The position numbers and the translations under genes are program-made. Positions 17,164-52,113 of a stretch of 64,000 bases of DNA are shown piece by piece. This DNA is from Armatimonadota bacterium (GTDB lineage Bacteria; Sysuimicrobiota; Sysuimicrobiia; Sysuimicrobiales; Sysuimicrobiaceae). How positions within the stretch are numbered: position 1 is the stretch's first letter; every line of letters begins with the position of its first letter. The DNA is taken from positions 1-64,000 of the forward strand of contig JANXCW010000001.1 in the NCBI GenBank assembly GCA_025059775.1, in the 5' to 3' direction. The notes under the pieces were generated by a model that was not told the origin of the DNA, searched no databases, and was given only the letters and a program-made list of their open reading frames with translations.

Positions 17164-18144
17164 TCACAGACCCAACAGCTCCGCCGGGTTCCGGCGCCCC
17201 ATCCGATCCAGCGCACGGTCCGTGATCCCCAGGGCCCGGAGCTGCTGCACAAAGGCCAGGTACCCCTCTGCCGGCCGCGGGAGCGGGGAGGCGCCGAGAT
17301 CGCTGGAGAGGATGCACCGCTCGGCTCCCACGGCCTTGATGGCCGCAGCCATTTGCTCCACGGAGGCCCCCTGCCAGGTGCGGAAGCGCTCCACGGGGGA
17401 ATCCGGCCCCAGGAAGACCCCGCAGTACGCGTGCTCGATGTAGGCGCCAAGCCGGGCCGCTTCCCGCTGTTCCTCAATGGTCATGCGGATGGGGTCGTAG
17501 TCCGCGTGGGTGCACACGATCCGCTCCACCCCCGCGGCCCGCGCCTCCCGGATCAGGGCCAGGGCCTCCTGCGCGGAGAGGTGCCCGGTCTGGAGTACGA
17601 GATCGTACTCCGCACACAACCGGAGGATCTCCCGAGCCGCGGGAAGCAGCCGGGTTCCGTCGAAGACCTCCACGCCCGGCTGGGGGATTCCGAACCGCTC
17701 GTGGTGGTTGCGGGCGTGGATGCTGGGCATCCACACCACCTTCCCCACACCTTCCGCGCCTCCTCCCCGGAAGGCCACCATGGCCTCCACGGCCGCGGGG
17801 TTCAGGCCTCCCATGGGCCAGTTGAGCACCACGCCTCCGAACACCCGGATCCCTCCGCCCACCTCCGCCTGGGCCTGCGCCGCCCGGGTCACCGTCTCAA
17901 AGGCCCCGCCCTTGAGCACCACGGCTCGCATGCCGAGTGCGCGGGCGGTCTGGGCCGCCTCCACCGCGTCCACGGTGCGATCGAAGGTGTCCGGAAAGGT
18001 ATGGACGTGGAAATCGATCATCCCCTCCGTGGCCTCCTCCCGCACGCGCTCTAGCAGCTCAGGCGCAAACTGCACGGGCGCCGGAGTCGCACGGAACCGG
18101 AGGATCGGAGCGCAGCAATCCAAGCCCCAGCACATGGATTCCAC
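17164..18144 (-). CDS. DUF6282 family amidohydrolase-fold protein
   Basis: The core starts at GMIDFHVHTFPD, giving the H-x-H metal pair (His46, His48). It goes on to VVLKGG, the LQTGHLS His, the VCTHADYDP His and the LSSDLGA Asp, which is the ligand order of metal-dependent amidohydrolases. This agrees with DUF6282 proteins, which have no assigned reaction. The neighbouring RidA and FAH-family genes make an ACMSD-like decarboxylase or a hydrolase of ring-cleavage products worth considering. The N-terminal 25 residues are weakly supported and a later start is possible. It begins 3 bp after the RidA gene stop, so the two are coupled. Confidence 0.75.
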   Translation of the reverse strand: MESMCWGLDCCAPILRFRATPAPVQFAPELLERVREEATEGMIDFHVHTFPDTFDRTVDAVEAAQTARALGMRAVVLKGGAFETVTRAAQAQAEVGGGIRVFGGVVLNWPMGGLNPAAVEAMVAFRGGGAEGVGKVVWMPSIHARNHHERFGIPQPGVEVFDGTRLLPAAREILRLCAEYDLVLQTGHLSAQEALALIREARAAGVERIVCTHADYDPIRMTIEEQREAARLGAYIEHAYCGVFLGPDSPVERFRTWQGASVEQMAAAIKAVGAERCILSSDLGASPLPRPAEGYLAFVQQLRALGITDRALDRMGRRNPAELLGL

Positions 18145-18635: not shown

Positions 18636-19562
18636 TCACCCTTCCCGAACCACGGGATTCGCCAGTTCCCCGAGTCCTGAGGCCCGCACCACCACCCGAT
18701 CTCCCGGACGCAGGAACACGGGCGGGTTGCGCACGAACCCCACGCCCGCGGGTGTCCCCGTGGCGATGACGTCCCCGGGCTCGATCCCGCAGGTCTGGGA
18801 GACGAAGGAGACGATCTGGGGGATGGAGAAGATCATCTCCGAGGTCCGGGCCCGCTGCATCACCTCCCCGTTCAACCGGAGCTCCAGCTCCAGATCGTGT
18901 GGATCCGGGATCTCGTCCGCGGTGACGACCCACGGTCCGAAGGGGGTAGAGCGGTAGAAGTTCTTGCCCGCGGTCCACTGGCTTACCGCCCGCTGGTAGT
19001 CCCGCACGCTGACGTCGTTGAGCAGACTGTAGCCGGCCACGTACTGCATGGCCTCCTCCTCGGAGAGGTACCGACCCGGTCTCCCCAGCACCACCACCAG
19101 CTCCGCCTCGTAGTCCACCTGGTCGCTCAGCCGGGTGATCCGGATGGGCTCCTCGTGCCCGATCAAGGTGGTGGGGAACTTGCAGAACAGCACCGGGACC
19201 TTCGGAAGAGGCTGTCGGGCCTCCTCCGCGTGGTCCCGGTAGTTGAGGCCCAGGCAGATCACCTTGCCCGGATCCGGGACAGGAGGAAGCAGCCGCACCT
19301 GTGCGAGAGGAAGCACGGTCCAGGGATCCCGGTGGGCCAGGGCATACTCCACCGCGGGACGGACCCGCTCCAGGACCTCCGGCCACCGGGCGAGGAAATC
19401 CCTGGCCCGCGGGGGGACCTCCCACCCCGCCCGCTCCACCGCGTCCACAATTCCCCGGGCGCGCAGGTACGCCGCGTAGGCGGCGTTCGCGTCCACCACC
19501 TCCGTTCCCTCCACGATGCCTAGACGCGGCCCTAGGGGACTATCGAAGGTCACAAGCCGCAT
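18636..19562 (-). CDS. Fumarylacetoacetate hydrolase (FAH) family protein
   Basis: The 308-residue protein has the C-terminal FAH catalytic domain: CLGLNYRDHAEE (about 105-116), the metal-binding DYEAELVVVLG, NDVSVRDYQ, GKNFYRSTPFGPW and IATGTPAGVGF. The family contains acylpyruvases, 2-hydroxypentadienoate hydratases and 4-oxalocrotonate decarboxylases, which act on products of aromatic meta-cleavage. It lies directly downstream of a broken extradiol dioxygenase gene and upstream of RidA, which fits that role. The exact substrate is unknown. Confidence 0.9.
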   Translation of the reverse strand: MRLVTFDSPLGPRLGIVEGTEVVDANAAYAAYLRARGIVDAVERAGWEVPPRARDFLARWPEVLERVRPAVEYALAHRDPWTVLPLAQVRLLPPVPDPGKVICLGLNYRDHAEEARQPLPKVPVLFCKFPTTLIGHEEPIRITRLSDQVDYEAELVVVLGRPGRYLSEEEAMQYVAGYSLLNDVSVRDYQRAVSQWTAGKNFYRSTPFGPWVVTADEIPDPHDLELELRLNGEVMQRARTSEMIFSIPQIVSFVSQTCGIEPGDVIATGTPAGVGFVRNPPVFLRPGDRVVVRASGLGELANPVVREG

Positions 19563-19640: not shown

Positions 19641-20481
19641 CTACTCCAGGAACTCCGGCGGCGGGGCCGGCCCCCATTGGTTGATGGTCTCGGGACAATC
19701 CTCCCAGACGCGCGGCGTGTACGCATCCTCGTCCCAGATCTGGAGCATGTCCGTGAAGAGCTCGTTGATGATCCCATCGAGGTTGCGCACGTACAGGAAC
19801 AGGTTGAACCCAGAGCCGTGTCGGCCGGGCCCGTACAGGAGTCGGATGTCGTGGTTCAGCATGTGGTCCGCCAGGGCCCGCAGCGCGCTCCAGTCCTGGA
19901 CTTCCCAGGCCAGGTGGTGCAGGCTCGCCCGCTCCGCCTGGATCCACGCCACGCCGTGGTGGTCCGGGCTGCAGCGCATCCACACCATGACAGAGGCCAT
20001 CCAGTCGGGGACCCGGAAGCCCAGGACCTTCTCGTAGAACGCCACCTGTCGGTGGGTATCCGTCCACCTTCGCGGGTAATGTGCCCGAACTTCCGGGGCG
20101 CCCACACGGGGAACCGCACCCCGTCGTACCGTCTTTGCATGCCACAGTAGAGGTGGACCCGGTACCCCTCCGGGTCCTGGAACTCTAAGGTCCGCTGCTG
20201 GCCCAGAACCGTTACCTCACGGGTCACGACGCCTGCACTCCGAAGCTCCCGATCCGCCTGCTCCAACGCCCGCTCGCCGGGACCTCGAACCCGAAGTGAT
20301 GCGCCTCAGGGGGGTCTCCCTCGTACAGGATCAGCCCGTGGTGCGTGGCGTCGCAGCTGAGATACGCAGCTCCCTCCGTCCGCCCCGTGAGCTCCAACCC
20401 CAGGATCTCCCGATACCAGCGGATCCCCGCGTCCAGATCTCGGGTATACAGACCGATATGCCCCACCCGCCGGATCTCCAT
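19641..20481 (-). pseudogene. Extradiol (VOC) dioxygenase broken by two frameshifts
   Basis: Three minus-strand frames join into one catechol-2,3-dioxygenase-like protein. Frame 1 starts at ATG 20481 (good GGAGGGA ribosome site) with MEIRRVGHIGLYTRDLD and runs to HHFGFEVP. Frame 2 resumes as ALEQADRELRSAG and runs to the metal-ligand segment RKFGHITR. Frame 3 runs from DTHRQVAFYEKVLGF through HHLAWEV to the stop at 19641. The first break, near 20277, is explained by one missing G in a CCCGG run; the second is near 20070. Restored length would be about 280 residues with two VOC modules. Either the gene is decaying or these are indel errors in the assembly. The intact metal His residues favour recent loss or error. 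Confidence 0.85.
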
Positions 20482-20539: not shown

Positions 20540-22852
20540 TTATGGCTGCCCTCTGTGTACCCGCTCCCGCATGGCCCGCCACACCCGCTCCGGCCGGAAG
20601 GGGAAGTCCAGGTGCCGCACTCCCAAGGGGCCCAGGGCATCCATCACCGCATTCGCCACCGCGGCGGGCATCCCGATGGTCCCTGCCTCCCCGATGCCCT
20701 TTGCTCCCAGGGGGTTCAAGGGGCTTGGGGTCTCCAGCAGCTCCGTCTCCACCTCCGGGATGTCCTCCGCCCGCGGCACCGCGTACTCCGCGAGACTCGC
20801 CGTCAAGGGTTGCCCGTCCTCTCCGTACACCACCTCCTCCCGCAGGGCCTGTCCGATCCCCTGCGCGATTCCGCCCCGCACCTGCCCTTCTGCCAGCAGC
20901 GGGTTAATGATCCGTCCCGCATCGTCCACCGCCAGCAGTTTCAGCAGCCTCACCTCGCCCGTCTCCCGGTCCACCTCCACCAGGGCCCCGTATGCCCCGT
21001 AGGGGAAAACCAACCCCGGGAGGGCGAAATACCCGGATGCATCCAGACCCAACTCCATTCCCGGCGGGAGGCGACCGGGCTGGTAGGCAGCGGCCGCGAG
21101 CTCCCGCCAGGACACCGCCCGACCCGGCGCACCCCGGACCCGCAGCTGCCCCTCCTGCCACTCGATATCCGCCTCCGCGGCTTCCAGGAGGTGCGCGGCG
21201 ATCCGGGTGGCCTTCTCCCGGATCTTCCGCAGGGCCACCACCAGGGCGGAACCGCCGATGGTGGTGGACCGGCTCCCGAAGGTCCCTACCCCCGGGAGCA
21301 CGGTCGCGGAGTCCCCGTACTCTACCGCGATGTCCTCGACATCCAGGTGCAGCAGCTCCGCGGCGATCTGCGCGAAGGTGGTCTCGTGCCCCTGGCCGTG
21401 GGTGGTGGAGCCCGTGCGCACCACCACCCGGCCGGACGGGAGCACGCAGACCGAAGCGCTCTCCCACTCCCGGGCCCCCACCCGTTCCACGTACAGGGCA
21501 ACCCCGATCCCCACGAGCCGGCCCTCCGCCCGGGCCCGCTCCCGCCGGGCCCGCCATCCGTCCGCGTCCATCAGGGCCTGCAGCCGCGCCAGGGCATGGG
21601 GGTAGTCTCCCGAGTCGTAGGTAAACCCGAGTGGCGTGCGGTACGGGAAGGCATCCGGGGGAATGCAGTTGCGCAGCCGCAGCTCCACAGGATCCAGGCC
21701 CAGCTCCCGGGCTACGAGATCCACCATGCGCTCCACGAGATACGCGGCCTCAGGGCGCCCGGCACCCCGGTAGGGTCCTGTGGGCACCTTGTTCGTGGCC
21801 ACCCCCAGCACCGTGACCTCCGCCGCGGGGATGGCATAGGCGCCCGTGAGCAGCATGGCGGCGGTGACGGGAGGAATGACGGTGGAAGGCAAAAGGTAGG
21901 CGCCCACATCCGCCCACAGGGTGGCCCGCACCCCGAGGATGCGCCCTGTTTCCTCCACCGCCATCTCCACCTCCGCCTCGAGCCCACGCCCCTGGTAGGA
22001 AGCTAGAAGGTTCTCACGCCGGTTCTCCACCCACTTCACGGGGCGCCGCAACCGCATGGCGAGCCAACCGGCGAGGGCTGCTTCCGACGGCAGGCTTCCC
22101 TTGCTCCCGAAGGCACCTCCCACATCCGGTACCACCACCCGGATGCGGTCCTCCGGATGCCGCAGGATCCGGCTCAGCTGCGTGCGGGGCTGGTGCGGTC
22201 CCTGGGCAGAGCACCACAGAGTGAGGAGATCGGTCCCCGGATCGTACACGGCAAGCGCCCCCCGGGGCTCCAGGGGAACTGCGGCTAGGCGGGGAATCCG
22301 AAAGCGGGCATGCACCACCCGAGCTGCCCGTCGGAAGGCCGCTTCCAGATCTCCCCCGGCACGGCGCCACCGGAACAGCACGTTGTCCGGCAAGGTCTCA
22401 TGGAGCCGCACTTCTCCCCTCAGGGCCTCCTGCAGGTCCACCACCGCGGGCAGCGGTTCCACCTCCAGATCGACCTCCGCGGCGGCATCCTGCGCCGCGG
22501 CCCGGCTCTGTGCCACCACCACGGCCACGGGTTCCCCCACGTAGTGAACCCGGCCCCGGGCGAGCAGCGGATGCGGGGCCATGGCTACCTCAGCGCCCTC
22601 CACCGGAGCCGGGGGAACTCCCTGTAGGCCCGGGGGGAGATCCTCCGCGGTGACCACCGCCACCACCCCCGGCATCCCCCGGGCCCGATCCACCCGCACC
22701 GCCCGGAGCACCCCATGCGCGAGGGGACTCCGAACCACCACCATGTGGAGCATCCCCGGGAGGATCAGGTCGTCGAGGTAACGGGCCTCGCCGCGGAGGA
22801 ACCTCAGATCCTCCCGACGCCGGAGGGGTTTTCCGATCCACCGCGTTTCCAC
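20540..22852 (-). CDS. Molybdenum hydroxylase large subunit (xanthine dehydrogenase / CoxL form II family)
   Basis: This 770-residue molybdopterin-cytosine-dinucleotide subunit shows the cofactor-binding GGAFGSKG (245-252), the active-site loop PYRGAGRPE (360-368) and the catalytic Glu in GIGEAGTIG near residue 725. The AYRCSFR loop of true aerobic CO dehydrogenase is absent, so CO oxidation is unlikely. The enzyme probably hydroxylates an aldehyde or N-heteroaromatic ring. No FAD (CoxM) or 2Fe-2S (CoxS) subunit gene is adjacent or elsewhere in the window, which is odd because the family needs them for electron transfer. The GTG start at 22852 has GGAGGTG 6 bases upstream. Candidate maturation genes are at 48-52 kb. 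Confidence 0.9.
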   Translation of the reverse strand: METRWIGKPLRRREDLRFLRGEARYLDDLILPGMLHMVVVRSPLAHGVLRAVRVDRARGMPGVVAVVTAEDLPPGLQGVPPAPVEGAEVAMAPHPLLARGRVHYVGEPVAVVVAQSRAAAQDAAAEVDLEVEPLPAVVDLQEALRGEVRLHETLPDNVLFRWRRAGGDLEAAFRRAARVVHARFRIPRLAAVPLEPRGALAVYDPGTDLLTLWCSAQGPHQPRTQLSRILRHPEDRIRVVVPDVGGAFGSKGSLPSEAALAGWLAMRLRRPVKWVENRRENLLASYQGRGLEAEVEMAVEETGRILGVRATLWADVGAYLLPSTVIPPVTAAMLLTGAYAIPAAEVTVLGVATNKVPTGPYRGAGRPEAAYLVERMVDLVARELGLDPVELRLRNCIPPDAFPYRTPLGFTYDSGDYPHALARLQALMDADGWRARRERARAEGRLVGIGVALYVERVGAREWESASVCVLPSGRVVVRTGSTTHGQGHETTFAQIAAELLHLDVEDIAVEYGDSATVLPGVGTFGSRSTTIGGSALVVALRKIREKATRIAAHLLEAAEADIEWQEGQLRVRGAPGRAVSWRELAAAAYQPGRLPPGMELGLDASGYFALPGLVFPYGAYGALVEVDRETGEVRLLKLLAVDDAGRIINPLLAEGQVRGGIAQGIGQALREEVVYGEDGQPLTASLAEYAVPRAEDIPEVETELLETPSPLNPLGAKGIGEAGTIGMPAAVANAVMDALGPLGVRHLDFPFRPERVWRAMRERVHRGQP

Positions 22853-22890: not shown

Positions 22891-24324
22891 CTAGGGATTC
22901 AGCACCACGAGGCGCAGGTCCGTCATCTCCTCGATGGCGTACCTGGGTCCTTCCCGTCCGATCCCGCTGCGCTGGACGCCGCCGTAGGGCATGAGGTCCA
23001 CCCGGTAGCCGGAGGTGTCGTTGACGATCACTCCGCCCATCCGCAAGGTCTTCGCCGCGAGCACGGCCTTGCGGAGGTCGTTGGTGAACACCCCCGCCTG
23101 CAGGCCGTAGACGGTGTCGTTAGCGTGCTGCAAAGCTTCCTCGAAGGTCCTGCACGCCACCACGGAAGCTACGGGACCGAAGACCTCCTGGCAGACCACC
23201 CGCATCTCCGGCCGCACGTCCACCAGCACCGTGGCAGGGTACAGCACCCCCTGGCGCGGGCCGCCCAGTACCCGTTTGGCGCCTCCCTCCAGGGCCTCCT
23301 CCACCCAGGCCTCCACCCGCTTGGCATCCTCCTCGGAGATCATGGGGCCGATGTCGGTCTCCGGATCCTCGGGATCCCCGAGCTTCATCGCCTGTGCGGC
23401 GGCCACGAACTTCTCCAAAAATGCCTCGTAGACGGGCTCCTCCACGTAGATGCGCTGGACGGAGATGCAGAACTGGCCCGCGTACAGGTACGCGAACCGG
23501 GCCAACAGCGGTGCTGCCCGATCCAGGTCGGCATCCTGGGCCACGATATTGGGAGAGTTGTTTCCAAGCTCCAAGATCACGCGCCGGAGTCCTGTGGCCG
23601 TTTTGATGCGCTCCCCCACCTCCGGACTGCCGGTGAAGGTATAGAGGGCGATACCCGGATGCCGCAGCAGGGCCTCTCCTACCGTGCGCCCACTTCCCAC
23701 CACCACGTTGAGGTATCCGGGAGGGAGTCCAGCGTCCTCCAGCAGCTGCGCCAGCAGCAGGCTCGTGAGGGGCGTATAGGTGGCGGGCTTGAGCACCACC
23801 GCGTTGCCTGCCGCCAGAGCCGGAGCCACCTTGTGGGCCACCAGGTTGAGGGGGAAGTTGAAGGGTGCGATGGCGCACACCACACCTACCGGCACCCGGA
23901 TGGTGAACGCGATCCGCCCCTCGGATCCGGGGGCCGCGTCCACGGGGACCTGTTCCCCGTGGATGCGCTTGGCCTCCTCCCCGCTCAGGGAGATGGTCTG
24001 GATGGCCCGGTCGACCTCGATGTGGGCGTACTTGAGCGGTTTGCCGGCCTCCCGGGCGATGGTGCGGGCGAACTCCTCCTTCCGCTCGCTCAACAGATCC
24101 GCGGCCCGCCGCAGGATCTCGAACCGACGGTACGGCGGTAGCGGCCGTTCCTCCACGGCCCGCCGGGCGGCCCGCACCGCCTCGTCCACGAGCGCTTCGT
24201 CCGCCTCCGCCACCTCCGCCAGGACCTCCTGCCGGTACTTATGCAGCACCGGCACGTACCGCTCCCCCTCCCGCCACCGTCCATCGATCCACAGATCCCA
24301 CCGTGGAACCGTCACAGTGCCCAT
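22891..24324 (-). CDS. NAD(P)-dependent aldehyde dehydrogenase
   Basis: A 477-residue ALDH superfamily enzyme. The catalytic Cys is residue 286 in AGQFCISVQ and the general base Glu is 252 in LELGNNSPNI, where the usual GG is GN. The cofactor-binding FTGSPEVGERI is at 230-240 and the substrate-anchor Asn is in PFNFPLN. It oxidises an aldehyde to an acid in the cytoplasm. Its position next to ring-cleavage genes would suit a muconic semialdehyde dehydrogenase, but glyceraldehyde-3-phosphate- or succinate-semialdehyde-type substrates cannot be excluded. The start at 24324 is supported by GGAGGTG about 7 bases upstream. Confidence 0.9.
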   Translation of the reverse strand: MGTVTVPRWDLWIDGRWREGERYVPVLHKYRQEVLAEVAEADEALVDEAVRAARRAVEERPLPPYRRFEILRRAADLLSERKEEFARTIAREAGKPLKYAHIEVDRAIQTISLSGEEAKRIHGEQVPVDAAPGSEGRIAFTIRVPVGVVCAIAPFNFPLNLVAHKVAPALAAGNAVVLKPATYTPLTSLLLAQLLEDAGLPPGYLNVVVGSGRTVGEALLRHPGIALYTFTGSPEVGERIKTATGLRRVILELGNNSPNIVAQDADLDRAAPLLARFAYLYAGQFCISVQRIYVEEPVYEAFLEKFVAAAQAMKLGDPEDPETDIGPMISEEDAKRVEAWVEEALEGGAKRVLGGPRQGVLYPATVLVDVRPEMRVVCQEVFGPVASVVACRTFEEALQHANDTVYGLQAGVFTNDLRKAVLAAKTLRMGGVIVNDTSGYRVDLMPYGGVQRSGIGREGPRYAIEEMTDLRLVVLNP

Positions 24325-24359
24325 CCACACACCTCCCCTCCCGATAGCCTCCGGACCCT

Positions 24360-25136
24360 CTAGATCAGGGAGTAGCTCTGGCCTCCGTCGATGTTGATGC
24401 AGGCGCCTGTGATGAGGGATGCCCGCTCCGAGGCAAGGAACGCCACGAGATCCCCCACGGGCTCCGGCCAGCCGAACCGGCCCATGGGCAGGTTGCGCTC
24501 GATGAACGCCTCCACCACCTCCGGCGGATTGCTCCGGACGAACCGGTCCCATCCCCCACCCGGGAACAGAATGGAGCCTGGAGCTACGGAGTTCACCAGC
24601 ACGTTGTCCTTGGCCACCTGCCGGGCCAGGCTCTTCGTGAACGCGATGAGGGCAGCCTTCGCGGTCATGTACGCGATGGTTCCTCCGTACTCCCGCCCCC
24701 AGATGGAGGCGATGTTGATGATACGCCCCCACCGCCGCCTGCGCATCTCCGGGAGGACAAGTCGGGTGAGCCGGATGGCGCTGAACAGGTTGAGCATGAG
24801 GGCGTCCAGGAAGTCCTGCTCCGTGGTGTCCTCCAAGGACTGCCCCCCGCGCCGTCCGCCCACGTTGTTCACCAGGATGTCCACCTGCCCGAAGCGCTCC
24901 GCCGTCTCCCGGTAGACCTTTTCCGGCCCCTCCGGGCGCGTCACATCCGCCACGATGCCCAGGGCCTCCACGCCGAGGGCACAGAGCTCCTCCACAGCCC
25001 GGTGAAGACCTTCCGGGTTTCGCGCGCAGATGGCCACCCGGACTCCCTCCCGGGCCAGGGAAACGGCCGCGCTCCGCCCCAGGCCCCGGCTCCCCCCGGT
25101 GACGATGGCGACCTTTCCCCGAATCCCGAGGTCCAC
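24360..25136 (-). CDS. Short-chain dehydrogenase/reductase (catalytic residues intact)
   Basis: A classical SDR of 258 residues with cofactor loop TGGSRGLG (about 14-21), NNVGG, the active Ser in NIASIW and the Y-x-x-x-K pair in AYMTAKAAL. The ICARN segment after beta-2 suggests NADP(H) preference. It would interconvert an alcohol and a ketone, possibly 3-oxoacyl-type. The GTG start at 25136 lies 8 bp after the E2 gene, with a weak AAGG ribosome site. Confidence 0.88.
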   Translation of the reverse strand: MDLGIRGKVAIVTGGSRGLGRSAAVSLAREGVRVAICARNPEGLHRAVEELCALGVEALGIVADVTRPEGPEKVYRETAERFGQVDILVNNVGGRRGGQSLEDTTEQDFLDALMLNLFSAIRLTRLVLPEMRRRRWGRIINIASIWGREYGGTIAYMTAKAALIAFTKSLARQVAKDNVLVNSVAPGSILFPGGGWDRFVRSNPPEVVEAFIERNLPMGRFGWPEPVGDLVAFLASERASLITGACINIDGGQSYSLI

Positions 25137-25144
25137 GCGCCTTG

Positions 25145-26266
25145 CTACCGCAGCAGCGCCAGCGGCTCCTCCACAAACCCCGCCAGCGTCTCCAGAAACC
25201 GGGCGGCCCGGGCACCGTCTACCACCCGGTGGTCGCACGACAGCCCCAAGGTGAGACGAGGGCGCACCACGGCTTTCCCTTCCTCTCCCGTCACCCGCTC
25301 CGCGATGCGCCCCACGCTCAGAATGGCCGCCTGGGGAGCGTTGACGATGGCGAAGAACCGATCCACCCCGTACATGCCGAGGTTGCTGAGGGTGAAGGTG
25401 CCTCCCTCCACATCTTCTAGGCGCAGCTTCCCGGACCTCGCCCGCTCCACCAGCTCCGCCCGGCGACGCGCGATCTCCTCCACGGGAAGTCCGTCCGCTC
25501 CCTGGATCACGGGCACTACGAGCCCTTGCTCCGTGGCCACCGCGAGGCCGATGTTCACCTCCGCAAGGCGACGGATCCGCCCCTCCTCCCATCGGGCGTT
25601 GAGCTCCGGATGGAGCCGCAGGGCCGCGGCCACCAGCTTCACCAGCAGATCCGTGTACGTAAGATCCTCCTGCACCCGCGTCCGCAGAGCCTCCCGCCAT
25701 GCCAGCAGGCGATCCGCCCGCACGTCCCGCTCCAGGAAGAAGTGCGGGACGGTAGCCCACGCCCGCGCGGTGCGCTCCGCCATGAGCTTCCACACGTGTG
25801 GGAGCTCCGCGGGCTCCGCCCGAGCCGCGGCCTGCTCCACGTCCGCGGCCAGTACCGCTCCCCCCGGGCCTGATCCTTTCAGGGTCCGGAGATCCACCCC
25901 GAGCTCCTGGGCGATCCTGCGGGCCTTCGGGGAGGCCCGGACCCTGCGCTCCGGCGGGGCTGCGAGGCGGGGGGGAGGGGCGGAAGGCACCATTACAGCC
26001 GCCGTCTCTTCAGGCCTCGGGCCCGGAAGCACACCGGGCGACTCACCGGGCAGGAGGATCCAGCCGATCACCTGTCCTACCGGTACCTCTCCACCCTCCG
26101 GCACAAGGATCCGGCCCAACACGCCGCTGGCCGGGGCCTCGATCTCCACGTTGGCCTTGTCGGTCTCCACCTCCAGGAGGGGCTCACCCTGACGGACCTC
26201 CTGCCCCTCCCCTCGCAGCCACTTCAGAACCTTCCCCGTCTCCTGGGCTAAGCCCAGGGCGGGCAT
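25145..26266 (-). CDS. 2-oxoacid dehydrogenase E2 component (dihydrolipoamide acyltransferase)
   Basis: A 373-residue E2 with three parts in order. The lipoyl domain has the modified Lys in ETDKANVEIEAP (about 36-47). A peripheral subunit-binding domain follows (RASPKARRIAQELGVDL, about 110-126). The catalytic acyltransferase core ends with SCDHRVVDGARAARFL. It forms the core of the complex whose E1 subunits are encoded upstream. No E3 gene is in the window, so E3 must be supplied from elsewhere. ATG at 26266 has AAGGAGG 5 bases upstream. An M24-family gene separates it from E1 beta, which is unusual. Confidence 0.93.
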   Translation of the reverse strand: MPALGLAQETGKVLKWLRGEGQEVRQGEPLLEVETDKANVEIEAPASGVLGRILVPEGGEVPVGQVIGWILLPGESPGVLPGPRPEETAAVMVPSAPPPRLAAPPERRVRASPKARRIAQELGVDLRTLKGSGPGGAVLAADVEQAAARAEPAELPHVWKLMAERTARAWATVPHFFLERDVRADRLLAWREALRTRVQEDLTYTDLLVKLVAAALRLHPELNARWEEGRIRRLAEVNIGLAVATEQGLVVPVIQGADGLPVEEIARRRAELVERARSGKLRLEDVEGGTFTLSNLGMYGVDRFFAIVNAPQAAILSVGRIAERVTGEEGKAVVRPRLTLGLSCDHRVVDGARAARFLETLAGFVEEPLALLR

Positions 26267-26297
26267 GATCACCTCCTTCGGCACCTCTCCCTCCGAC

Positions 26298-27635
26298 TTA
26301 GGGCCGGACGCCTTCCACCGCCGCGGAGGCCACCACCGCTCCGAGTGGACTCGTCTCCCGGTTGAGGTGCGACTGCACCTCGCGCCGGAGCGGGAGCGGC
26401 CCGTCCACGGTCCAGTACCGGGCACCCGCCACCAGGAGCTGCTCTGCGGGAAAGCGCGTGATGACCTCGCAGCCGTCCTTGGTGACCACCAGCTGCTCCT
26501 CGATGCGGGCGGCGGACCAGCCGTCCGCGGCGGGCCAGAAGGTCTCCAGGGCCAGCACCATCCCTTCCTCGATGACCTCCGGTTTGTCGAAGGACACGAG
26601 GCGGCTGAAGATGGGCTTCTCCCAGATGGAAAGCCCCACCCCGTGCCCGTACTGCAGCGCGAAGGCGGCCTCCTCGTTGGCAAAGCCGAATTCCTCGGCC
26701 CGGGGCCACACCCGAACCACGTCCGCGGTGGTCACCCCGGGCTTGATGAGGCTGATGGCCGCATCCAGGTAGTCCCGGCACCGCTTGTAGGCATCCACCA
26801 TGGCGGGAGAGGCGCTCCCCACCACGAAGGTGCGGTAGTAACAGGTGCGGTAGCCGTTGAAGCTGTGCAGGATGTCGAAGTACACGGGATCCCCGGGCCG
26901 TAGGACTCGGTCCGTATACACGTGGGGATGCGGGCTGCACCGCTCCCCAGAGATGGCATTCACCCCCTCCACATGCTCGGAGCCAAGATCGTAGAGGACC
27001 TTGGCCACAAGCCCCACGCACTCGTTCTCCCGGACCCCGGGGCGCAGGAACTTGTACAGCTCTTCGTATGCGGCGTCCACCATCATGCAGGCCGTCGTCA
27101 GCAGGGTGATCTCGTCCTGCGTCTTGATCTTGCGGGCTTCCGTCATCACCCACTGTCCGTCCACCACCCGCAGTCCCTCCTCCTGGAGGGCAAACAGCAC
27201 CGTGGGCTCCACCACGTCCACCCCTAGGGGCTCCTTGTGCAGGCCCCGGGCCTCCAGTTCGGTGCGGATCTTGCGGGCCACGTCCCGGGCCCGCTCCGGG
27301 TACGATCCCCGCAGGGTGGAGATCCCCGCCCGGGACCGCTCCCCCAGCCACGGACAATACAGTTGGTGGTGCCGGGCCGCGGAGCCGAAATCCCACAGGA
27401 TAGGCTCATCGTCCTGCGGCAGCAGGCAGAACCGGACGAGCTTGTCCATGGCCCAGGTCCCGATATGGGTTGCGGTGATGTAGCGGATGTTGTTCATGTC
27501 GAAGCACAGCAGGGCTCCCAACTCCGAGCGTTTCAGGAAGGTCTTGGCACGCTGCAGGCGCTCCCGCCGCAGCCGCTCATAGTCCACGCGGACTTCCCAG
27601 TCCACTCCCATCAGCCCGTACGTTTTGATCCCCAT
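26298..27635 (-). CDS. M24 (pita-bread) family protein lacking one metal ligand
   Basis: The 445-residue protein has a creatinase-type N-terminal domain and a C-terminal M24 fold with QYGHGVGLSIWE (His331), LALETF (Glu364) and RIEEQLVV (Glu379/380). Metal-dependent M24 enzymes have two Asp ligands about 11 residues apart. Here Asp254 in YFDILHSF is kept, but the expected second position is Cys265 within GYRTCYYR. It may bind one metal, bind metal differently or work without metal as creatinase does. Prolidase, creatinase-like C-N hydrolase and DMSP-lyase-like roles are all possible. ATG at 27635 was chosen for the AGGAGGTGA site just upstream. It lies between the E1 beta and E2 genes of a dehydrogenase complex. 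Confidence 0.85.
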   Translation of the reverse strand: MGIKTYGLMGVDWEVRVDYERLRRERLQRAKTFLKRSELGALLCFDMNNIRYITATHIGTWAMDKLVRFCLLPQDDEPILWDFGSAARHHQLYCPWLGERSRAGISTLRGSYPERARDVARKIRTELEARGLHKEPLGVDVVEPTVLFALQEEGLRVVDGQWVMTEARKIKTQDEITLLTTACMMVDAAYEELYKFLRPGVRENECVGLVAKVLYDLGSEHVEGVNAISGERCSPHPHVYTDRVLRPGDPVYFDILHSFNGYRTCYYRTFVVGSASPAMVDAYKRCRDYLDAAISLIKPGVTTADVVRVWPRAEEFGFANEEAAFALQYGHGVGLSIWEKPIFSRLVSFDKPEVIEEGMVLALETFWPAADGWSAARIEEQLVVTKDGCEVITRFPAEQLLVAGARYWTVDGPLPLRREVQSHLNRETSPLGAVVASAAVEGVRP

Positions 27636-27663
27636 CTTCCTCACCTCCTCCGGCCTCTCCGCT

Positions 27664-28689
27664 TCATGCTCGCCCACACAGTTCCCTCGCCACCGCGGCC
27701 ACCTGCTCGGGTGTCGGCACAGTCTCGTCCTCGAGGACCGGCGAGAAGGGGACCGGCACGTCCATGGCGCCCAGGCGCCGCACGGGCGCTTCGAGGTCGT
27801 AGAAAGCTTCCTCCGCGATCACCGCGGCGATCTCCGCAGTCACCCCATATCGTCGGTATCCCTCATCGATCACGATCACGCGGCCGGTCTTTCGGGCGCT
27901 TTGCACCAGGGTCTCCACGTCCAGGGGTACCGTGGTGCGGGGATCCACCACCTCCGCCTCGATCCCCTCCTGGGCCAGGATCCGGGCGGCGTCCAGGGCC
28001 ACGTACACCATGCTGCTGGTGGCTACCAAGGTCACGTGGCGGCCCGGACGCTTGATGTCCGCCACCCCGAAGGGGATGGTGTACTCCTCCTCCGGAACGG
28101 GTCCCTTCACCTGGTACATCATCTTGTCCTCAAAGAAGAGCACGGGGTTGTCGTCCCGGATGGCGGTCTTCAACAATCCCTTGGCGTCGTAGGGGGTAGC
28201 GGGGAGCGCCACCTTGAGCCCCGGGATGTGGCTGAACCAGGCGTGCAGGCTCTGGCTGTGCTGGGCCGCGGACCGTCTGGTGGCGCCCAGGGTTGTGCGC
28301 ACCACGAGCGGCACCCGGAGCTTGCCTCCCGACATGTAACACACCTTGGCCGCCTGGTTTGCGATCTGGTCCATGGCCAGGGTGAGGAAGTCCCCGAACA
28401 TGATGTCCACCACCGGCCGCATTCCCGTCATGGCCGCGCCCACCGCGATGCCCACGAACCCCGCTTCGGAGATCGGAGTGTCCAGAACCCGCTCAGGCCC
28501 GAACTCCTGCACGAGGCCCGAGAGCACCTTGAAGGGGTGACCGGCCTCCGCCACGTCCTCCCCCAGAAGGAACACCCGGGGATCCCGACGCATCTCCTCC
28601 GCCAGGGCCTCCCGGATGGCCTGGGCCATGGTGATTTCCCGGACGCCCGCGCGTGCATCCGATCCTACGGAGAGACTAGGCGTAGACAT
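27664..28689 (-). CDS. 2-oxoacid/acetoin dehydrogenase E1 component, beta subunit
   Basis: A 341-residue E1 beta chain with the TPP-contacting FLLGEDVAEAGH (about 40-51), DTPISEAGFVGIAVGAA, the QHSQSLHAWFSHIPGLKV loop and the C-terminal transketolase-like domain ending in VIVIDEGYRRYG. It pairs with the upstream E1 alpha chain to decarboxylate a 2-oxoacid or cleave acetoin. The first 14 bp overlap the end of the alpha gene, so expression is coupled. Confidence 0.93.
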   Translation of the reverse strand: MSTPSLSVGSDARAGVREITMAQAIREALAEEMRRDPRVFLLGEDVAEAGHPFKVLSGLVQEFGPERVLDTPISEAGFVGIAVGAAMTGMRPVVDIMFGDFLTLAMDQIANQAAKVCYMSGGKLRVPLVVRTTLGATRRSAAQHSQSLHAWFSHIPGLKVALPATPYDAKGLLKTAIRDDNPVLFFEDKMMYQVKGPVPEEEYTIPFGVADIKRPGRHVTLVATSSMVYVALDAARILAQEGIEAEVVDPRTTVPLDVETLVQSARKTGRVIVIDEGYRRYGVTAEIAAVIAEEAFYDLEAPVRRLGAMDVPVPFSPVLEDETVPTPEQVAAVARELCGRA

Positions 28690-29689
28690 GCTGGCTCACC
28701 TCGCTGGGATCCGGATAGGGAGCCTGAAGGGCGTAGGCCACGCCCGCCAGAACCTCCTCGCGCACCGCCTGCTCGATGCGCTCGAACTCCGCTTCCTCCG
28801 CAAGCCCTGCCTGTACCATCCAGCTCCGCAGGATCCGCAAAGGATCCCGCTCTCGTTTCCACCACTCCTCCTCCTCCTTGCTCCGGTAGTAGGAGCGGTC
28901 CACGTCGCCCACGTGGTGGCCGTAGAACCGATAGGTGTTGCACAGGAGGAAGCTGGCTCCTTCTCCCCGCCGGGCCCGGGCCACGGCCCGCCGGGCTGCG
29001 GCCAGCACCTGCCGCACGTCCTGCCCATCCACCTCCTCCGCGGGGATCCCGAAGGCCCGGGGACGCGCCAGGATGTCCCCCGCGGTGGTCTCCCGGTAGT
29101 GGGTGTACTCGTTATAGAGGTTGTTCTCGCACACGTAGATCACCGGGAGCTTCCACAGGGCGGCCATGTTCATGGCCTCGTACACGATCCCCTGTCCCAG
29201 GGCCCCCTCCCCGAAGAAGCATACCGCCACCTGGTCCGTGCCCCGCATCTTCGCCGACAGGGCCGCGCCCGCGGCGATCCCCGCGCTCCCGCCCACGATA
29301 GCGTTGGCTCCGAGGTTGCCGGAGTCGGGATCCGCGATGTGCATGGATCCGCCCTTGCCCCGGCAGTAGCCCTCTGCCTTGCCCAGCAGTTCGCAGAACA
29401 TCCGGTCCACCCGGGCTCCCTTCGCCAGACAGTGGCCGTGGCCCCGGTGGGTGCTGGTGATGTAGTCCTCCCGGCGCAGGGCCTGACACACGCCCACCGC
29501 CACTGCCTCCTCCCCCACATAGAGGTGCGCGAGTCCCGGCATGCGCCGGGTCACGTACAGCTCGTTTACCTGCTCCTCGAAGGCCCGGATCTTTGCCATG
29601 AGCTCGTACATGTGGAGCCACCCTTCCCGCGGCACGTCCCGGACCTCCGGTGGAATTCCGACTTCCACGGATGTTACGGGTTGCTGCAT
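28676..29689 (-). CDS. 2-oxoacid/acetoin dehydrogenase E1 component, alpha subunit
   Basis: A 337-residue thiamine-diphosphate subunit. The TPP motif spans FFGEGALGQG to VCENN (about 158-190). RGHGHCLAKG and GKGGSMHIADP are typical of the AcoA/PdhA group, and the wording is closest to acetoin-dehydrogenase-type alpha chains. ATG at 29689 follows a GGAGG site. The substrate could be pyruvate, a branched-chain oxoacid or acetoin. The neighbouring beta-hydroxyacid dehydrogenase hints at valine- or isobutyrate-like chemistry but does not settle it. Confidence 0.92.
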   Translation of the reverse strand: MQQPVTSVEVGIPPEVRDVPREGWLHMYELMAKIRAFEEQVNELYVTRRMPGLAHLYVGEEAVAVGVCQALRREDYITSTHRGHGHCLAKGARVDRMFCELLGKAEGYCRGKGGSMHIADPDSGNLGANAIVGGSAGIAAGAALSAKMRGTDQVAVCFFGEGALGQGIVYEAMNMAALWKLPVIYVCENNLYNEYTHYRETTAGDILARPRAFGIPAEEVDGQDVRQVLAAARRAVARARRGEGASFLLCNTYRFYGHHVGDVDRSYYRSKEEEEWWKRERDPLRILRSWMVQAGLAEEAEFERIEQAVREEVLAGVAYALQAPYPDPSEVSQHVYA

Positions 29690-29702: not shown

Positions 29703-30593
29703 CTATTGCAGCTGGGGCGGCCGCCCGCTCAGGCGGGACAGGACCTCGAACAGGATCGCGAAGTCGTACCGATCCAGCCCCATGCCCCGCGCGGCGGTGA
29801 GGTATTCGTTGGTCACCGCCGTGGTGGGGAGGGGCACGTTGAGCTCCCGCCCCGCCTCCAGGGCGAGCAGCAGGTCCTTCTGCATCATGTTCACGTCGAA
29901 CCAGGCCTCCTCCGGCATCTGGAGCACGAAGGGACCCCGGTATTTGAGCATGGGGGAGGCCGCCACGCTGTTGAGCAGCACCTGCACCGCGACCTCCCGG
30001 GGGATCCCTGCTTTCTCCGCCATCAGAACCCCCTCGCAGTAGGCCAGCATCTGGACCGCGAGGCTGAGGTTGGTGGCGATCTTCATGAGGACCGCCTGTC
30101 CGTTTCCGCCCACATGATGCACCACGGGCCCGATGTCCCGGAGGATGGGAAGCACCCGCTCGAAGGTGTCCCGGTCCCCGCCCACCATGATGGACAGTCG
30201 GCCCTCCTCGAGGGTCGTCACGCTCCCGGACACCGGGGCGTCCAGCATCCGCGCCCCCTGCGCCCGGACCTTCTCCGCCAGGGCCCGGCTCGCCGCGGGG
30301 CTCACCGTGCTCATATCCACGTAGATCTTGCCGGGTCCCAGGCCCGCGAGGATACCCTCCGGCCCCTCCGTGACTGCCAGCAATGCCTGGGTGTCCCTGA
30401 CCATGGTGAAGATCACGTCCGCAGCCTCCGCCACCGCCCGGGGGGAGTCCGCCCACTCCATGCCCAAATCCATGAGCCACTGCGCCTTGGACCGCGTGCG
30501 GTTGTAGCCTACCACCGAGCGTCCCGCCTGCAGGAGCCGCTTCACCATCCGGCTTCCCATCACGCCGAGCCCGACAAACCCGATCTTCTCCAC
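29703..30593 (-). CDS. NAD(P)-dependent beta-hydroxyacid dehydrogenase (3-hydroxyisobutyrate type)
   Basis: A 296-residue enzyme with the Rossmann loop GFVGLGVMGS (5-14), the substrate-binding DAPVSGS (about 118-124) and the catalytic Lys in NGQAVLMKIATN (about 170). These define the family of 3-hydroxyisobutyrate, tartronate-semialdehyde and related dehydrogenases. The YNRTRSK after beta-2 suggests NADP(H). The GTG start at 30593 follows the LIV importer genes by 45 bp and precedes the E1 genes by 13 bp, so it likely belongs to the same transcript. Confidence 0.9.
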   Translation of the reverse strand: MEKIGFVGLGVMGSRMVKRLLQAGRSVVGYNRTRSKAQWLMDLGMEWADSPRAVAEAADVIFTMVRDTQALLAVTEGPEGILAGLGPGKIYVDMSTVSPAASRALAEKVRAQGARMLDAPVSGSVTTLEEGRLSIMVGGDRDTFERVLPILRDIGPVVHHVGGNGQAVLMKIATNLSLAVQMLAYCEGVLMAEKAGIPREVAVQVLLNSVAASPMLKYRGPFVLQMPEEAWFDVNMMQKDLLLALEAGRELNVPLPTTAVTNEYLTAARGMGLDRYDFAILFEVLSRLSGRPPQLQ

Positions 30594-34080: not shown

Positions 34081-34105
34081 GGGAGGGATCCACGCTCCGT
34101 GGGCC

Positions 34106-35344: not shown

Positions 35345-35371
35345 CGATTGCACACCCCCTTCCTGAAATGG

Positions 35372-48222: not shown

Positions 48223-48813
48223 CTACTGGAGCGGTTCCAGGGCTTCCCGCACCCTGGCCCAGTCCTCCGGGGTGTCCACGTCCAGGGCCGCCTCCTCCAG
48301 GGGGACGAAGACCGCTTCGCTTCCGTGGGCTTCCAGCACCGGCTTGGCACCCACATCGCCCTGAAGGGCTTTCAACTCCGAGAACAGGGCCCGGTGGAAG
48401 AGGGCCGGGGGACCGACCGTCCCCCGATACGCGCAGGCCACAATCCGGACTCCCTCCCTCCGCCAGATCTCCACGAGCCGCTGCAGGTGTTGTGGGGTCA
48501 GAGCAGGCTGGTCTCCAAGCAGCAGAAGTACTGCCTCCGCGTCCTCCACAGCCTCAATCCCCCTGCGCAGGGAGGTGCTGAGGCCCTGGGCGTGTTCCGG
48601 GTTCTCCACCACCCGCACAGGGAGACCGGAAAGTTCTGCCTGCATGCGGTCCGCCTCCGGCCCCACCACCACCACCACCTCATCGCAGATCCCAAGGGCC
48701 GTCTCCACCACCCGGCGCAAGAGGCTTTTTCCTCCTAAGTGCAGCAGGAGCTTCGGCTGCCCCATGCGGCGGCTACTGCCCGCCGCCAGCACGACGCAGG
48801 CAACCTTGCTCAC
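48223..48813 (-). CDS. MobA/MocA-like molybdopterin nucleotidyltransferase
   Basis: A 196-residue nucleotidyltransferase with the NTP signature VVLAAGSSRRMGQPKLLL (about 6-23), a metal-binding LLGDQPAL and a GPPALFHRALF segment. MocA proteins attach CMP to molybdopterin, producing the MCD cofactor of xanthine-dehydrogenase-family enzymes. The GTG start at 48813 overlaps the XdhC stop (GTGA). As last gene of the AAA-VWA-XdhC set, its place supports MCD synthesis over the GMP form. Confidence 0.85.
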   Translation of the reverse strand: MSKVACVVLAAGSSRRMGQPKLLLHLGGKSLLRRVVETALGICDEVVVVVGPEADRMQAELSGLPVRVVENPEHAQGLSTSLRRGIEAVEDAEAVLLLLGDQPALTPQHLQRLVEIWRREGVRIVACAYRGTVGPPALFHRALFSELKALQGDVGAKPVLEAHGSEAVFVPLEEAALDVDTPEDWARVREALEPLQ

Positions 48814-49928
48814 ACGGGGAGTGGCTCGTGGATGGGGGCGGGTCGGTCCCGCAGGAACCCCGCCTTCCGACCGTTCAGGGCCGCGAGGATCTCCGCGAGG
48901 ATGGCCAGGGCGATCTGCTCCGGCCCTTCTGCTCCGATGTCCAGGCCTACCGGTGCGTAGATCCGCCCCTCCAGTTCCGGACTTGGCCGTACGCCCTCCG
49001 CCTCCAGCTCCCGCAGGATCTTCTGGGTGCGCTGCCGGGGGCCCAAAAGTCCCAGGTAGGCGGGCGTGGTAGGGTAGGTGAGCAGGGAGCGGATGAGGTT
49101 CTTGTCGTGCAGGTAGTTGTGGGTCATCACCACCACGCAGGTTCGGGCATCGGGCCGGATCGCCTGCGCGGCTTCTGAAAACTCCGTGTGGAGGAATCCG
49201 TATGCCTCCGGGAACCGCTCCCGGGAGAGGAACTTCTCCCGCCGATCCACCACCACGGGCCGGAAGCCCAGCTCGTGTGCCAGGCGCACCAGCGGAATGG
49301 CGTCGTGTCCGGCTCCGCACACCACCAACCGCAGGGGGGGCTGGAGGGGCTCAAAGAAGAGCACAAACTCCTCCATGGCCTCGCGGGCCGGCTTTCCGTG
49401 GCACAGCACCTCCTGCGCCCGCGAGGCCGCCTGCGCGTCGAGTTCTGCCCGTCCGAGACTTCCCTCCCAGGTACCGTCCGGGTAGACCACCAGGCGCCGC
49501 CCGAGTTGAGGGGATCCCTCCGGTCCGATGACGGTCACCACCGCGAGCGGCCGTTCCCGCTCCACCGCCTCCTCCAGGAACCGCTCCGGCGGGGGTTCCG
49601 TAATACCCACCTTCTCCACCAGGACGTCGATCACCCCGTTACAGCCAAGTCCCAGCCCCCACACCGCCTCGTCGTCCGCGGTGAGGTCGTAGTGCAGCAG
49701 GCGCGGCCGCCCGTCCTGTAGAACTTCCTCCGCCACGATCTGCACGTCCCCCTCCAGGCACCCCCCTGAGATGGAGCCCACGAGGTCCCCGGTGGATCGG
49801 ATCAGCAGCCGGGCTCCCTCCCGCCGGTAGGTGCTTCCCCGCACCCCGACCACGGTGGCCAGGGCAGCTTCCTCCCCGCGGTCGCGTACCTCCCGCAGGG
49901 CCTGGAGGATGTCCAGCAGTTCCCGCAT
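48810..49928 (-). CDS. XdhC/CoxI family molybdenum cofactor insertion protein
   Basis: A 372-residue two-domain protein. The N-terminal XdhC/CoxI domain has GSTYRREGARLLI and SGGCLEGDV (about 30-62). The C-terminal Rossmann domain has VVCGAGHDAIPLV (about 210-222) and ends with DIGAEGPEQIALAILAEI. XdhC binds the cofactor, protects it during sulfuration and delivers it to molybdenum hydroxylases. The nearest such enzyme here is the orphan large subunit at 20.5-22.9 kb. It follows the VWA gene by 2 bp. Confidence 0.9.
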   Translation of the reverse strand: MRELLDILQALREVRDRGEEAALATVVGVRGSTYRREGARLLIRSTGDLVGSISGGCLEGDVQIVAEEVLQDGRPRLLHYDLTADDEAVWGLGLGCNGVIDVLVEKVGITEPPPERFLEEAVERERPLAVVTVIGPEGSPQLGRRLVVYPDGTWEGSLGRAELDAQAASRAQEVLCHGKPAREAMEEFVLFFEPLQPPLRLVVCGAGHDAIPLVRLAHELGFRPVVVDRREKFLSRERFPEAYGFLHTEFSEAAQAIRPDARTCVVVMTHNYLHDKNLIRSLLTYPTTPAYLGLLGPRQRTQKILRELEAEGVRPSPELEGRIYAPVGLDIGAEGPEQIALAILAEILAALNGRKAGFLRDRPAPIHEPLPV

Positions 49929-49930
49929 TC

Positions 49931-51088
49931 CTACTCCCTCCTTGCGATGCGGCGCCTCCGCGCCACCAGGGTGCGCTCCAGGGCGCGGAGGCTATCGAGG
50001 TTGTGGGCGGCGGCGAACACGTCCACGAAGGGTAGGGCCGTCTGCATGCCCCGGGTGAGGGGCTGGTAACCGGGGCTGCCGAGGAGGGGATTCAGCCAGA
50101 TCACCCGGCCTGAGCGGGCCCGGATCTCCCGCATGGCCCGGTGCAGGACCTCCACGTCTCCGGTGTCCCAGCCGTCGCTGAGGATCACCACCACCGTATG
50201 CGGATCCAGCAGGTGCCGCCACCCCTCCAGGAACTGCATGAGGCTCGCGCCGATCCGGGTACCCCCGGACCAGTTGGGCACCGTACGGCTCAGCCGGTCC
50301 AGCGCCTCCCGTAGGGTCCGAGACCGGAGGGCGGGGGTAACCCGGGTGAGGGAGGTGCTGAACACGAAGCTTTCCACGTTGCCCACGGCCTCCTGGAGCG
50401 CGTACACGAACTGGATCAGGAGCCGGCTGTAGATGTCCATGGAGCCGGAGACGTCGCACAGGAGCACGAGCCGTGTTTTGCGGATCCGCGGACGCTTAAA
50501 GGCCAGCTCCGGCAATTCCCCGCCCCACCGCAGGTGGAGCCGCATGGTGCGCCGCAGGTCGAGCCGGTGGCTGTGCCGAGCCCGCTGCATCCGGCGGCTC
50601 ATGCGGGTGGCGATGCGGCGGGCGATGGCCACCACCAGCTTCCCGATCTCCTCGAGCTCGCGATCCGTGAAGTTGGAGAAGTCCTTCCGGCTCAAGACCT
50701 CCAGAGCGCTGTAGCCAGGGACCTCCTGCTCTCCTTCCGTCTCCTCCCCGGCCTCCGCCCACCGTTCCATGGAGAGCTGCCCCTGCTCCCGCCCGGGCTC
50801 CTCCAGCGCCCCTCGTTCCTCCCCGTTCTCCGGTAGGGATTCCACGGGCGGGGAGGGGGACCAGTAGAGGGGGTAGAGGGCGTCGAAGATGCGCAGGTCG
50901 TGGTGGCTGTGGACCAGGGTGGTCCGGAGGGCGAGCCGGAACTGTTCCGGGTCCAGGACGTCCACCCGCTCCAGAGCCCGGAGGGCGTCCGCCACCTCCC
51001 CAGGCCCGCACAGAACCCCCTGAGCGCGCAGGGCCCGACCGAAGGCCACCACGTGGGCGGTGAGGTCTCCCAGCTCCGCTCTCCTCAC
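49931..51088 (-). CDS. VWA domain protein of the CoxE family
   Basis: A 385-residue protein with a C-terminal von Willebrand A domain. The MIDAS metal motif DVSGSM is near residue 215, with FSTSLTR and ILSDGWDTGD supplying the other ligands. In CO dehydrogenase maturation CoxE works with the MoxR-type ATPase CoxD to build the Mo-Cu centre; relatives serve other molybdenum hydroxylases. The Glu-rich linker (about 105-145) precedes an Arg-rich basic stretch. GTG at 51088 overlaps the ATPase stop (GTGA), typical of the coupled CoxD-CoxE pair. Confidence 0.9.
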   Translation of the reverse strand: MRRAELGDLTAHVVAFGRALRAQGVLCGPGEVADALRALERVDVLDPEQFRLALRTTLVHSHHDLRIFDALYPLYWSPSPPVESLPENGEERGALEEPGREQGQLSMERWAEAGEETEGEQEVPGYSALEVLSRKDFSNFTDRELEEIGKLVVAIARRIATRMSRRMQRARHSHRLDLRRTMRLHLRWGGELPELAFKRPRIRKTRLVLLCDVSGSMDIYSRLLIQFVYALQEAVGNVESFVFSTSLTRVTPALRSRTLREALDRLSRTVPNWSGGTRIGASLMQFLEGWRHLLDPHTVVVILSDGWDTGDVEVLHRAMREIRARSGRVIWLNPLLGSPGYQPLTRGMQTALPFVDVFAAAHNLDSLRALERTLVARRRRIARRE

Positions 51089-52035: not shown

Positions 52036-52052
52036 GGGCACATCCTCGTGTC

Positions 52053-52058
52053 CATTAT
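52053..52058 (-). promoter_or_regulatory. Consensus -10 box (TATAAT) before the AAA ATPase gene
   Basis: TATAAT on the minus strand lies about 18 bp upstream of the ATG at 52035, in the 78-bp gap after the TRAP permease gene. No recognisable -35 stands 16-18 bp further upstream, so an activator or an alternative contact may be needed. A small GC hairpin (CGGCC-ACGC-GGCCG) lies further upstream in the same gap. Confidence 0.4.
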
Positions 52059-52113
52059 ACTGCACCTTCTCGGCTAGCGGCCGCGTGGCCGGACTTGTCC
52101 CAGCACCATCCCT

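Follow-up and report, generated by a model that had tools for sequence, protein, structure and literature searches.

A lone molybdenum-hydroxylase large subunit and the inheritance of the lone state in Ca. Sysuimicrobiota

Molybdenum hydroxylases are usually read as fixed complexes of a large, molybdenum cofactor (Moco)-binding subunit (L), an iron-sulfur subunit with two [2Fe-2S] clusters (S) and an FAD subunit (M), and lone coxL-like genes in metagenome-assembled genomes (MAGs) are dismissed as incomplete. A gene encoding an L subunit stands without either partner in the DNA analysed here, a stretch of 64,000 nucleotides (the window) on contig C1 (287 kb) of genome G000, which is 2.35 Mb in 59 contigs, is 99.2% complete and belongs to the phylum Ca. 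Sysuimicrobiota. Is the subunit intact, how did it come to stand alone, and where would its electrons go? The gene is

20540..22852, (-) strand: lone molybdenum-hydroxylase large (Moco-binding) subunit L

The open reading frame begins with a GTG codon at 22852 and encodes a protein of 770 amino acids containing three Cys residues. The Pfam domains Ald_Xan_dh_C, MoCoBD_1 and MoCoBD_2 occur in that order and near full length (E values of 5e-25, 7e-78 and 5e-87), and the sequence includes the motifs GGAFGSK (at 245), YRGAGR (361), GQGH (486) and GEAG, with the catalytic Glu at 722. A large subunit of the xanthine oxidase (molybdenum hydroxylase) family is recognized by three domains at full length together with the catalytic Glu and Moco motifs, and both are found here. 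The best solved relatives are the large chain of CO dehydrogenase (CODH; 8uem, E 2e-175) and quinoline 2-oxidoreductase (1t3q, E 5e-165), while 6-hydroxypseudooxynicotine dehydrogenase (7dqx) matches with an E value of 2e-142; with these form II (i.e. coxL-like) enzymes the window L shares full-length homology, the Moco domains, the YRGAGR loop and the catalytic Glu. Comparison with its congener gives a dN of 0.087 and a dS of 0.60 (NG86), i.e. dN/dS ~0.15. All 28 orthologues keep the YRGAGR loop, GQGH and the catalytic Glu, and the alignment of these proteins has 161 invariant columns. The window gene thus encodes an intact large subunit of the family that is under constraint. The number of Cys residues ranges from 0 to 6 across the 28 orthologues (two have none), so that there is no conserved iron-sulfur cluster inside L, and a relay of its own is impossible.

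The protein is not a form I aerobic CODH. The active-site loop of form I is defined, in a marine CODH survey (PMC13240472), as (A/S)YRCS(F/L)R, and the loop here is PYRGAGR; the form I NCBIfam cut-offs are also missed (615.5 bits against 991 for TIGR02416, and 646.7 against 950 for NF040766). Assignment as the alpha subunit of glyceraldehyde dehydrogenase fails as well (NF041018, 699.6 bits, cut-off 790), and all scores for the 4-hydroxybenzoyl-CoA reductase, xanthine dehydrogenase (XDH) and PaoC equivalogs lie below the NCBIfam cut-offs. Since L falls under every equivalog cut-off, its substrate is not readable from the family.

A profile search found no S or M in the window, and whole-genome Pfam searches found none on the 287-kb contig. 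The claim of a preliminary description of this DNA, that a complete L subunit lacks both partners in the window, is therefore upheld. Over the whole genome the Pfam searches give six L, three S and three M, and all of the S and M sit in three complete L-S-M sets on contigs C3, C5 and C6 (the top score of the C5 set is 4-hydroxybenzoyl-CoA reductase, below cut-off). The genome-wide search for lone CoxM or CoxS homologues that the description had proposed thus yields none in G000. Three L are lone, i.e. the window gene, one at C18:7.4 kb and one at C1:107.6-109.9 kb. We note that the last of these (L017:8622-10877) forms a deep, isolated branch in the tree of L proteins described below. Adenine deaminase-like and nicotinate phosphoribosyltransferase-like genes lie beside it, with HdrA-like and ETF-like ORFs upstream (translations read by eye).

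The lone state was analysed across the phylum using 113 loci in which S, M and L were called by profile, and a tree of the 113 L proteins; 20 loci were added later. An L was labelled orphan when no S or M lies within 3.5 kb and there is at least 3 kb of DNA on both sides, giving 63 partnered, 38 orphan and 12 unassessed labels. The clade of the window L comprises 30 rows of the tree, two of which are duplicate copies of G019 and G027, and is present in 28 of the 43 genomes of the phylum. Its L is lone in all 21 assessable genomes (each flank 3 kb or longer), and several of the lone loci are set 6-20 kb or more in from the ends of long contigs. The other seven are close to contig ends, and no S or M was found in their shorter flanks. 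A holoenzyme requires S and, in most members of the family, an FAD subunit or domain to be encoded with L, and neither is found near any of the 28 window-clade L; in G000 the S genes are elsewhere in the genome. A second orphan clade (the C18 type) behaves similarly, with five of five f1 loci with full flanks being lone, in varying neighbourhoods.

The orphan label requires 10 changes on the L tree compared with 30.6 in shuffles, and none of 500 shuffles was as low; the contrast is inflated by near relatives, but the orphan clades nonetheless span several families. The totals over the 43 genomes are 374 L, 225 S and 179 M, i.e. about 150 more L than S, and taken genome by genome L is greater than S in 37, equal in six and lower in none. 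Whole clades inherit the lone state, and in the window clade it holds throughout Ca. Sysuimicrobiota. Chance, contig edges or missing data as its cause are rejected by the flank-checked loci, the tree shuffles and the extent of the clade over 28 genomes.

Outside the phylum a sample of 80 genomes was analysed, 28 of which contain L. L exceeds S in seven of these, equals it in 19 and is lower in two, and when G117 is removed the remaining 27 have an L:S ratio of 68:63. G117 is a complete 4.6-Mb genome from another phylum, with 22 L and 13 S. Eight of its loci were examined; six hold lone L (seven L in all) with more than 6 kb on both sides, a further lone-L locus has a contig end 1 kb away, and the last is a complete set. 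One of the G117 lone L groups with an orphan clade of Sysuimicrobiota, at 61-63% identity. An excess of L in the phylum and in G117, with near-parity elsewhere, indicates a lineage trait that is present in at least one other lineage and is not the usual state. Taken with the distribution of the clades, it shows the split to be ancient and, for the lineage, normal. The preliminary description had called the split arrangement uncommon; this is correct outside the phylum, and fails within it, where the window clade is always lone and L is generally in excess. It had also named, as something that would count against its reading, a clade that always uses distant partner genes; of this one half stands, namely that the clade is always lone.

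The solved relatives (8uem, 1t3q and 7dqx) are L-M-S complexes from one operon. Unlike these, the window clade has neither S nor M in any of its 28 neighbourhoods. In this it resembles the coxL-only loci of CODH surveys, where L is found without coxM and coxS. Form I loci of this kind in MAGs are read as incomplete recovery in the marine survey (PMC13240472). By contrast the lone state of the window clade tracks phylogeny, as the tree shuffles indicate, and persists inside long contigs; with 21 of 21 loci lone, the incomplete-recovery reading, fair for scattered cases, does not fit. No description of a lone-L clade was found in the open-access literature, taken mostly at the level of titles and abstracts, and in the available part of a paper on Sysuimicrobiota (PMC11604079) the terms coxL, xanthine and molybd- do not occur. 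Because loneness is inherited by clade, surveys that require a full operon will misjudge this phylum, as will those that take L by itself as a sign of CO oxidation or of xanthine dehydrogenase.

A set of maturation genes lies some distance from L, in the same window:

48223..48816, (-) strand: MocA-like molybdopterin nucleotidyltransferase (Pfam NTP_transf_3, E 3e-44; TIGR03310 171 bits, cut-off 186)
48810..49928, (-) strand: XdhC-type maturation factor (Pfam XdhC_CoxI and XdhC_C)
49931..51229, (-) strand: CoxE-like VWA protein (Pfam VWA_CoxE, E 6e-62; true start probably ~51091)
51085..52065, (-) strand: CoxD-type AAA ATPase (Pfam AAA_5; NCBIfam MadB_ATPase 271 bits, under cut-off)

The extent of the MocA gene proper (~48223-48816) is placed from the start of the NTP-transferase match; the longer listed ORF overlaps xdhC. 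These are the same gene families as those of the XdhC/MocA/CoxD/CoxE sets of CODH and XDH. Unlike those sets, this one (48223-52065) is adjoined by no structural gene, as the preliminary description had noted, and a coxMSL set beside it just outside the window was looked for and is not there. Both genome-wide matches to XdhC_CoxI fall within ORF 48810-49928, so that XdhC is unique in a genome with six L. Maturation, at least, is therefore shared, and the set probably serves all six L of G000. It stands apart from structural genes, but it is not an orphan of the window L specifically.

The distribution of another complete set, termed the 21-type, bears on how the maturation genes came to be isolated. 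XdhC lies within 12 kb on the same contig in 11 of the 21 tree rows of this type; the two often adjoin in sister families, and are on different contigs in the family of the window. The L tree contains no 21-type L from the genus of the window (G000 and G002). The most likely account of the maturation genes is therefore that they were left behind, as housekeeping genes used in common, by an adjoining structural set that has since moved or been lost.

The window L sits within a catabolic run of genes on the same strand, with an aldehyde dehydrogenase gene on one side and a broken VOC dioxygenase gene on the other:

17164..18144, (-) strand: DUF6282 / amidohydrolase-like (Pfam DUF6282, E 3e-63)
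18636..19562, (-) strand: FAA hydrolase (Pfam FAA_hydrolase, E 3e-78)
19641..20480, (-) strand: two-domain VOC (extradiol-dioxygenase-like) gene with two frameshifts (tblastn with congener protein)
22891..24351, (-) strand: aldehyde dehydrogenase, directly upstream of L (Pfam Aldedh, E 3e-158; start approximate, ORF 22891-25215)
24360..25215, (-) strand: short-chain dehydrogenase (Pfam adh_short, E 4e-51; start approximate, ORF 24360-25793)
25145..26289, (-) strand: 2-oxo-acid dehydrogenase E2-like (translation read by eye; start approximate, ORF 25145-26683)
26298..27677, (-) strand: M24 (creatinase-like) hydrolase (Pfam Peptidase_M24, E 3e-38)
27664..29689, (-) strand: 2-oxo-acid dehydrogenase E1 beta and E1 alpha (Pfam Transket_pyr/Transketolase_C and E1_dh)
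29703..30593, (-) strand: 3-hydroxyisobutyrate dehydrogenase-like (Pfam NAD_binding_2 and NAD_binding_11)
30639-35353: putative ABC uptake system genes, upstream of the L run (translations read by eye)

The VOC protein of the congener G002 (321 aa, L055:16972-17937) is intact and matches the window in three successive frames by tblastn; the broken gene is either a fresh pseudogene or the result of assembly errors. Several of the neighbours recur beside lone L at a minority of the 28 window-clade loci, i.e. the aldehyde dehydrogenase and the 3-hydroxyisobutyrate dehydrogenase-like gene at six each, and E2-like homologues and the M24 subfamily of the window at five each; another M24 subfamily is found at 15. 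The commonest neighbour, at 16 of the 28 loci, is an alpha/beta hydrolase, which lies on the strand of L in every case. The best solved relative of the member at L019 is 2,6-dihydroxypseudooxynicotine hydrolase (2jbw, E 3e-48), an enzyme that in nicotine catabolism acts directly after a molybdenum hydroxylase. An ABC ATPase occurs near lone L at 10 loci and an NMT1-type binding protein at seven. On this evidence the window L would most naturally hydroxylate the ring of an aromatic or N-heteroaromatic compound brought into the cell.

How would such an enzyme pass on its electrons? The two options of the preliminary description, shared distant partners or another acceptor, are both still live. 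We suggest, with a probability of about 0.5, that the window L works with S and M borrowed from other L-S-M sets of its genome. The Moco of L would be matured by the single MocA/XdhC/CoxD/CoxE set, and L would then act as an interchangeable catalytic head, binding the S and FAD subunits from a complete set elsewhere. The substrate, perhaps a carboxylate or ketone with an aromatic or N-heteroaromatic ring, would be imported by the adjoining ABC transporter and hydroxylated by L, with electrons passing from Mo to 2Fe-2S to FAD as in the relatives. Ring opening could follow, by the adjoining hydrolases or dioxygenases. An S subunit is the likeliest acceptor because the known relatives work in this way (the multi-subunit solved relatives presumably all use one), and because S and M are both present in 27 of the 28 genomes of the clade. 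If partners are indeed shared, the system would be modular, a few electron relays serving many catalytic heads, and directly testable and usable.

The co-occurrence of the clade with partner genes, which had been proposed as a check, is thus found for S and M over cut-off in general, but no one set is universal. The C6-type set has no match of at least 60% identity in nine of the 28 genomes, and is therefore rejected as an obligatory partner as a general rule; the 21-type is missing from the genus of the window. G012 (69% complete) has lone L with a sub-threshold match to S only, and no M or XdhC. The S and the L of the C6-type set diverge at about the same slow rate (distance ratio 0.97, compared with 1.41-1.57 for three other set types), and this S is slower than the S of other sets in 75 of 105, 15 of 15 and 10 of 10 of the same genome pairs. 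This might have marked a hub S serving many L. However, in the control, C6-type sets of other phyla, most of them without many lone L, gave ratios that were the same or lower (0.48-0.89), so that the slow S is a trait of the C6 type and its reading as a hub is rejected. It is the differing sets, G012 and this failed sign that keep our estimate for sharing from being higher. We know of no proven case of S or M sharing in the molybdenum hydroxylase family, and no paper on shared subunits in Sulfolobus was found in the open-access literature at the level of text available.

The conservation of L was also compared between partnered and orphan clades. The window L keeps 45 of the 45 columns that are invariant among partnered L. 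In a leave-out test the mean retention is 97.6% for the window clade, compared with 85-99% for partnered and 89-100% for other orphan clades, and by this strict test there is no release of conserved columns in orphan L. Most of the invariant columns concern Moco or the fold, and their retention is thus no proof of a conserved partner interface. In a comparison of two partnered clades with the two main orphan clades, 30 columns are fixed in the former and relaxed in both of the latter, and nine show the reverse. The orphans are more diverse, with mean identities of 65 and 62% within clades compared with 72 and 74% within partnered clades, and this internal diversity may explain the asymmetry.

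The alternatives that dispense with an S/M relay have jointly a substantial chance, if a lesser one than even. The window L might give its electrons to another soluble acceptor, such as a ferredoxin, a flavodoxin, an ETF or an iron-sulfur protein of LUD/CCG type, as would be consistent with the retention of an S/M-type partner in none of 28 neighbourhoods and with the lone L of G012, where neither S nor M exceeds the cut-off (although that genome is only 69% complete). In three of the four loci of one genus, g3 (L057, L058 and L059, in G003, G005 and G006), a gene with a CCG domain (LutA-like) lies directly after the lone L; a LUD-domain gene follows in G003 (L057), and there is a BLAST-linked ORF in G004. 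Yet no candidate is kept clade-wide, the commonest neighbours being hydrolases and transporters, and CCG and LUD genes are absent beside the window gene, so that we regard this acceptor as unlikely, while giving it serious weight. A reaction without net electron export, such as a lyase-type step or the internal transfer of a hydroxyl, would need no relay at all. It would account for relay genes being absent nearby at all 28 loci while the catalytic Glu and the loop are kept, and an internal-redox molybdenum enzyme exists in another family, namely pyrogallol-phloroglucinol transhydroxylase. But the active-site loop and Glu are those typical of ordinary hydroxylases of the family, and to our knowledge there is no precedent within the xanthine oxidase family; this is distinctly improbable for the window L. 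For the lone L class of the phylum as a whole, it is a tentative and rather unlikely proposal that it works without an Fe-S/FAD relay, either feeding a separate carrier directly or exporting no net electrons. The associated idea, that lone catalytic L subunits have radiated across the phylum in this form, we consider equally doubtful. Were partners unnecessary, a rule fundamental to the molybdenum hydroxylase family would no longer hold.

Pairing might also follow no single rule, the set that partners the lone L varying from genome to genome, or the partner being a lone S without M. S exceeds M over the 43 genomes (225 compared with 179), so S-only (i.e. FAD-less) arrangements exist, and there is no universal partner set; in G000, however, S and M are equal (three each) and all are in complete sets, and we think there is little chance that this is the explanation. 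That L is a relic, decaying after loss of S and M, or that its lone state is an artefact of assembly, is extremely improbable. The two frameshifts in the dioxygenase gene of the same operon could be taken to favour it, as could the attribution of coxL-only loci in MAGs to incomplete recovery in the marine survey (PMC13240472). Against it are the uniformly lone assessable loci, some deep within long contigs, the low dN/dS, an active site intact in 28 of 28 and the near-completeness of the genome. Borrowing from the complete sets remains our preferred reading.

Two other arrangements of L genes were observed. In L088 and L196 (G007 and G040, from two families) two different L form a tandem pair separated by 18-20 bases, and neither S nor M lies nearby. 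In nicotinate dehydrogenase (3hrd) the Moco subunit is split into NdhL and NdhM; the window L, by contrast, is one chain and has no S or M. A split similar to that of NdhL/NdhM is seen in L097, L099 and L102 (G023, G011 and G041, from three families), where the large subunit is encoded by two adjacent ORFs with S and M alongside. All three are divided at the same point, between profile positions ~437/450, and the ORFs are 18-24 bases apart.
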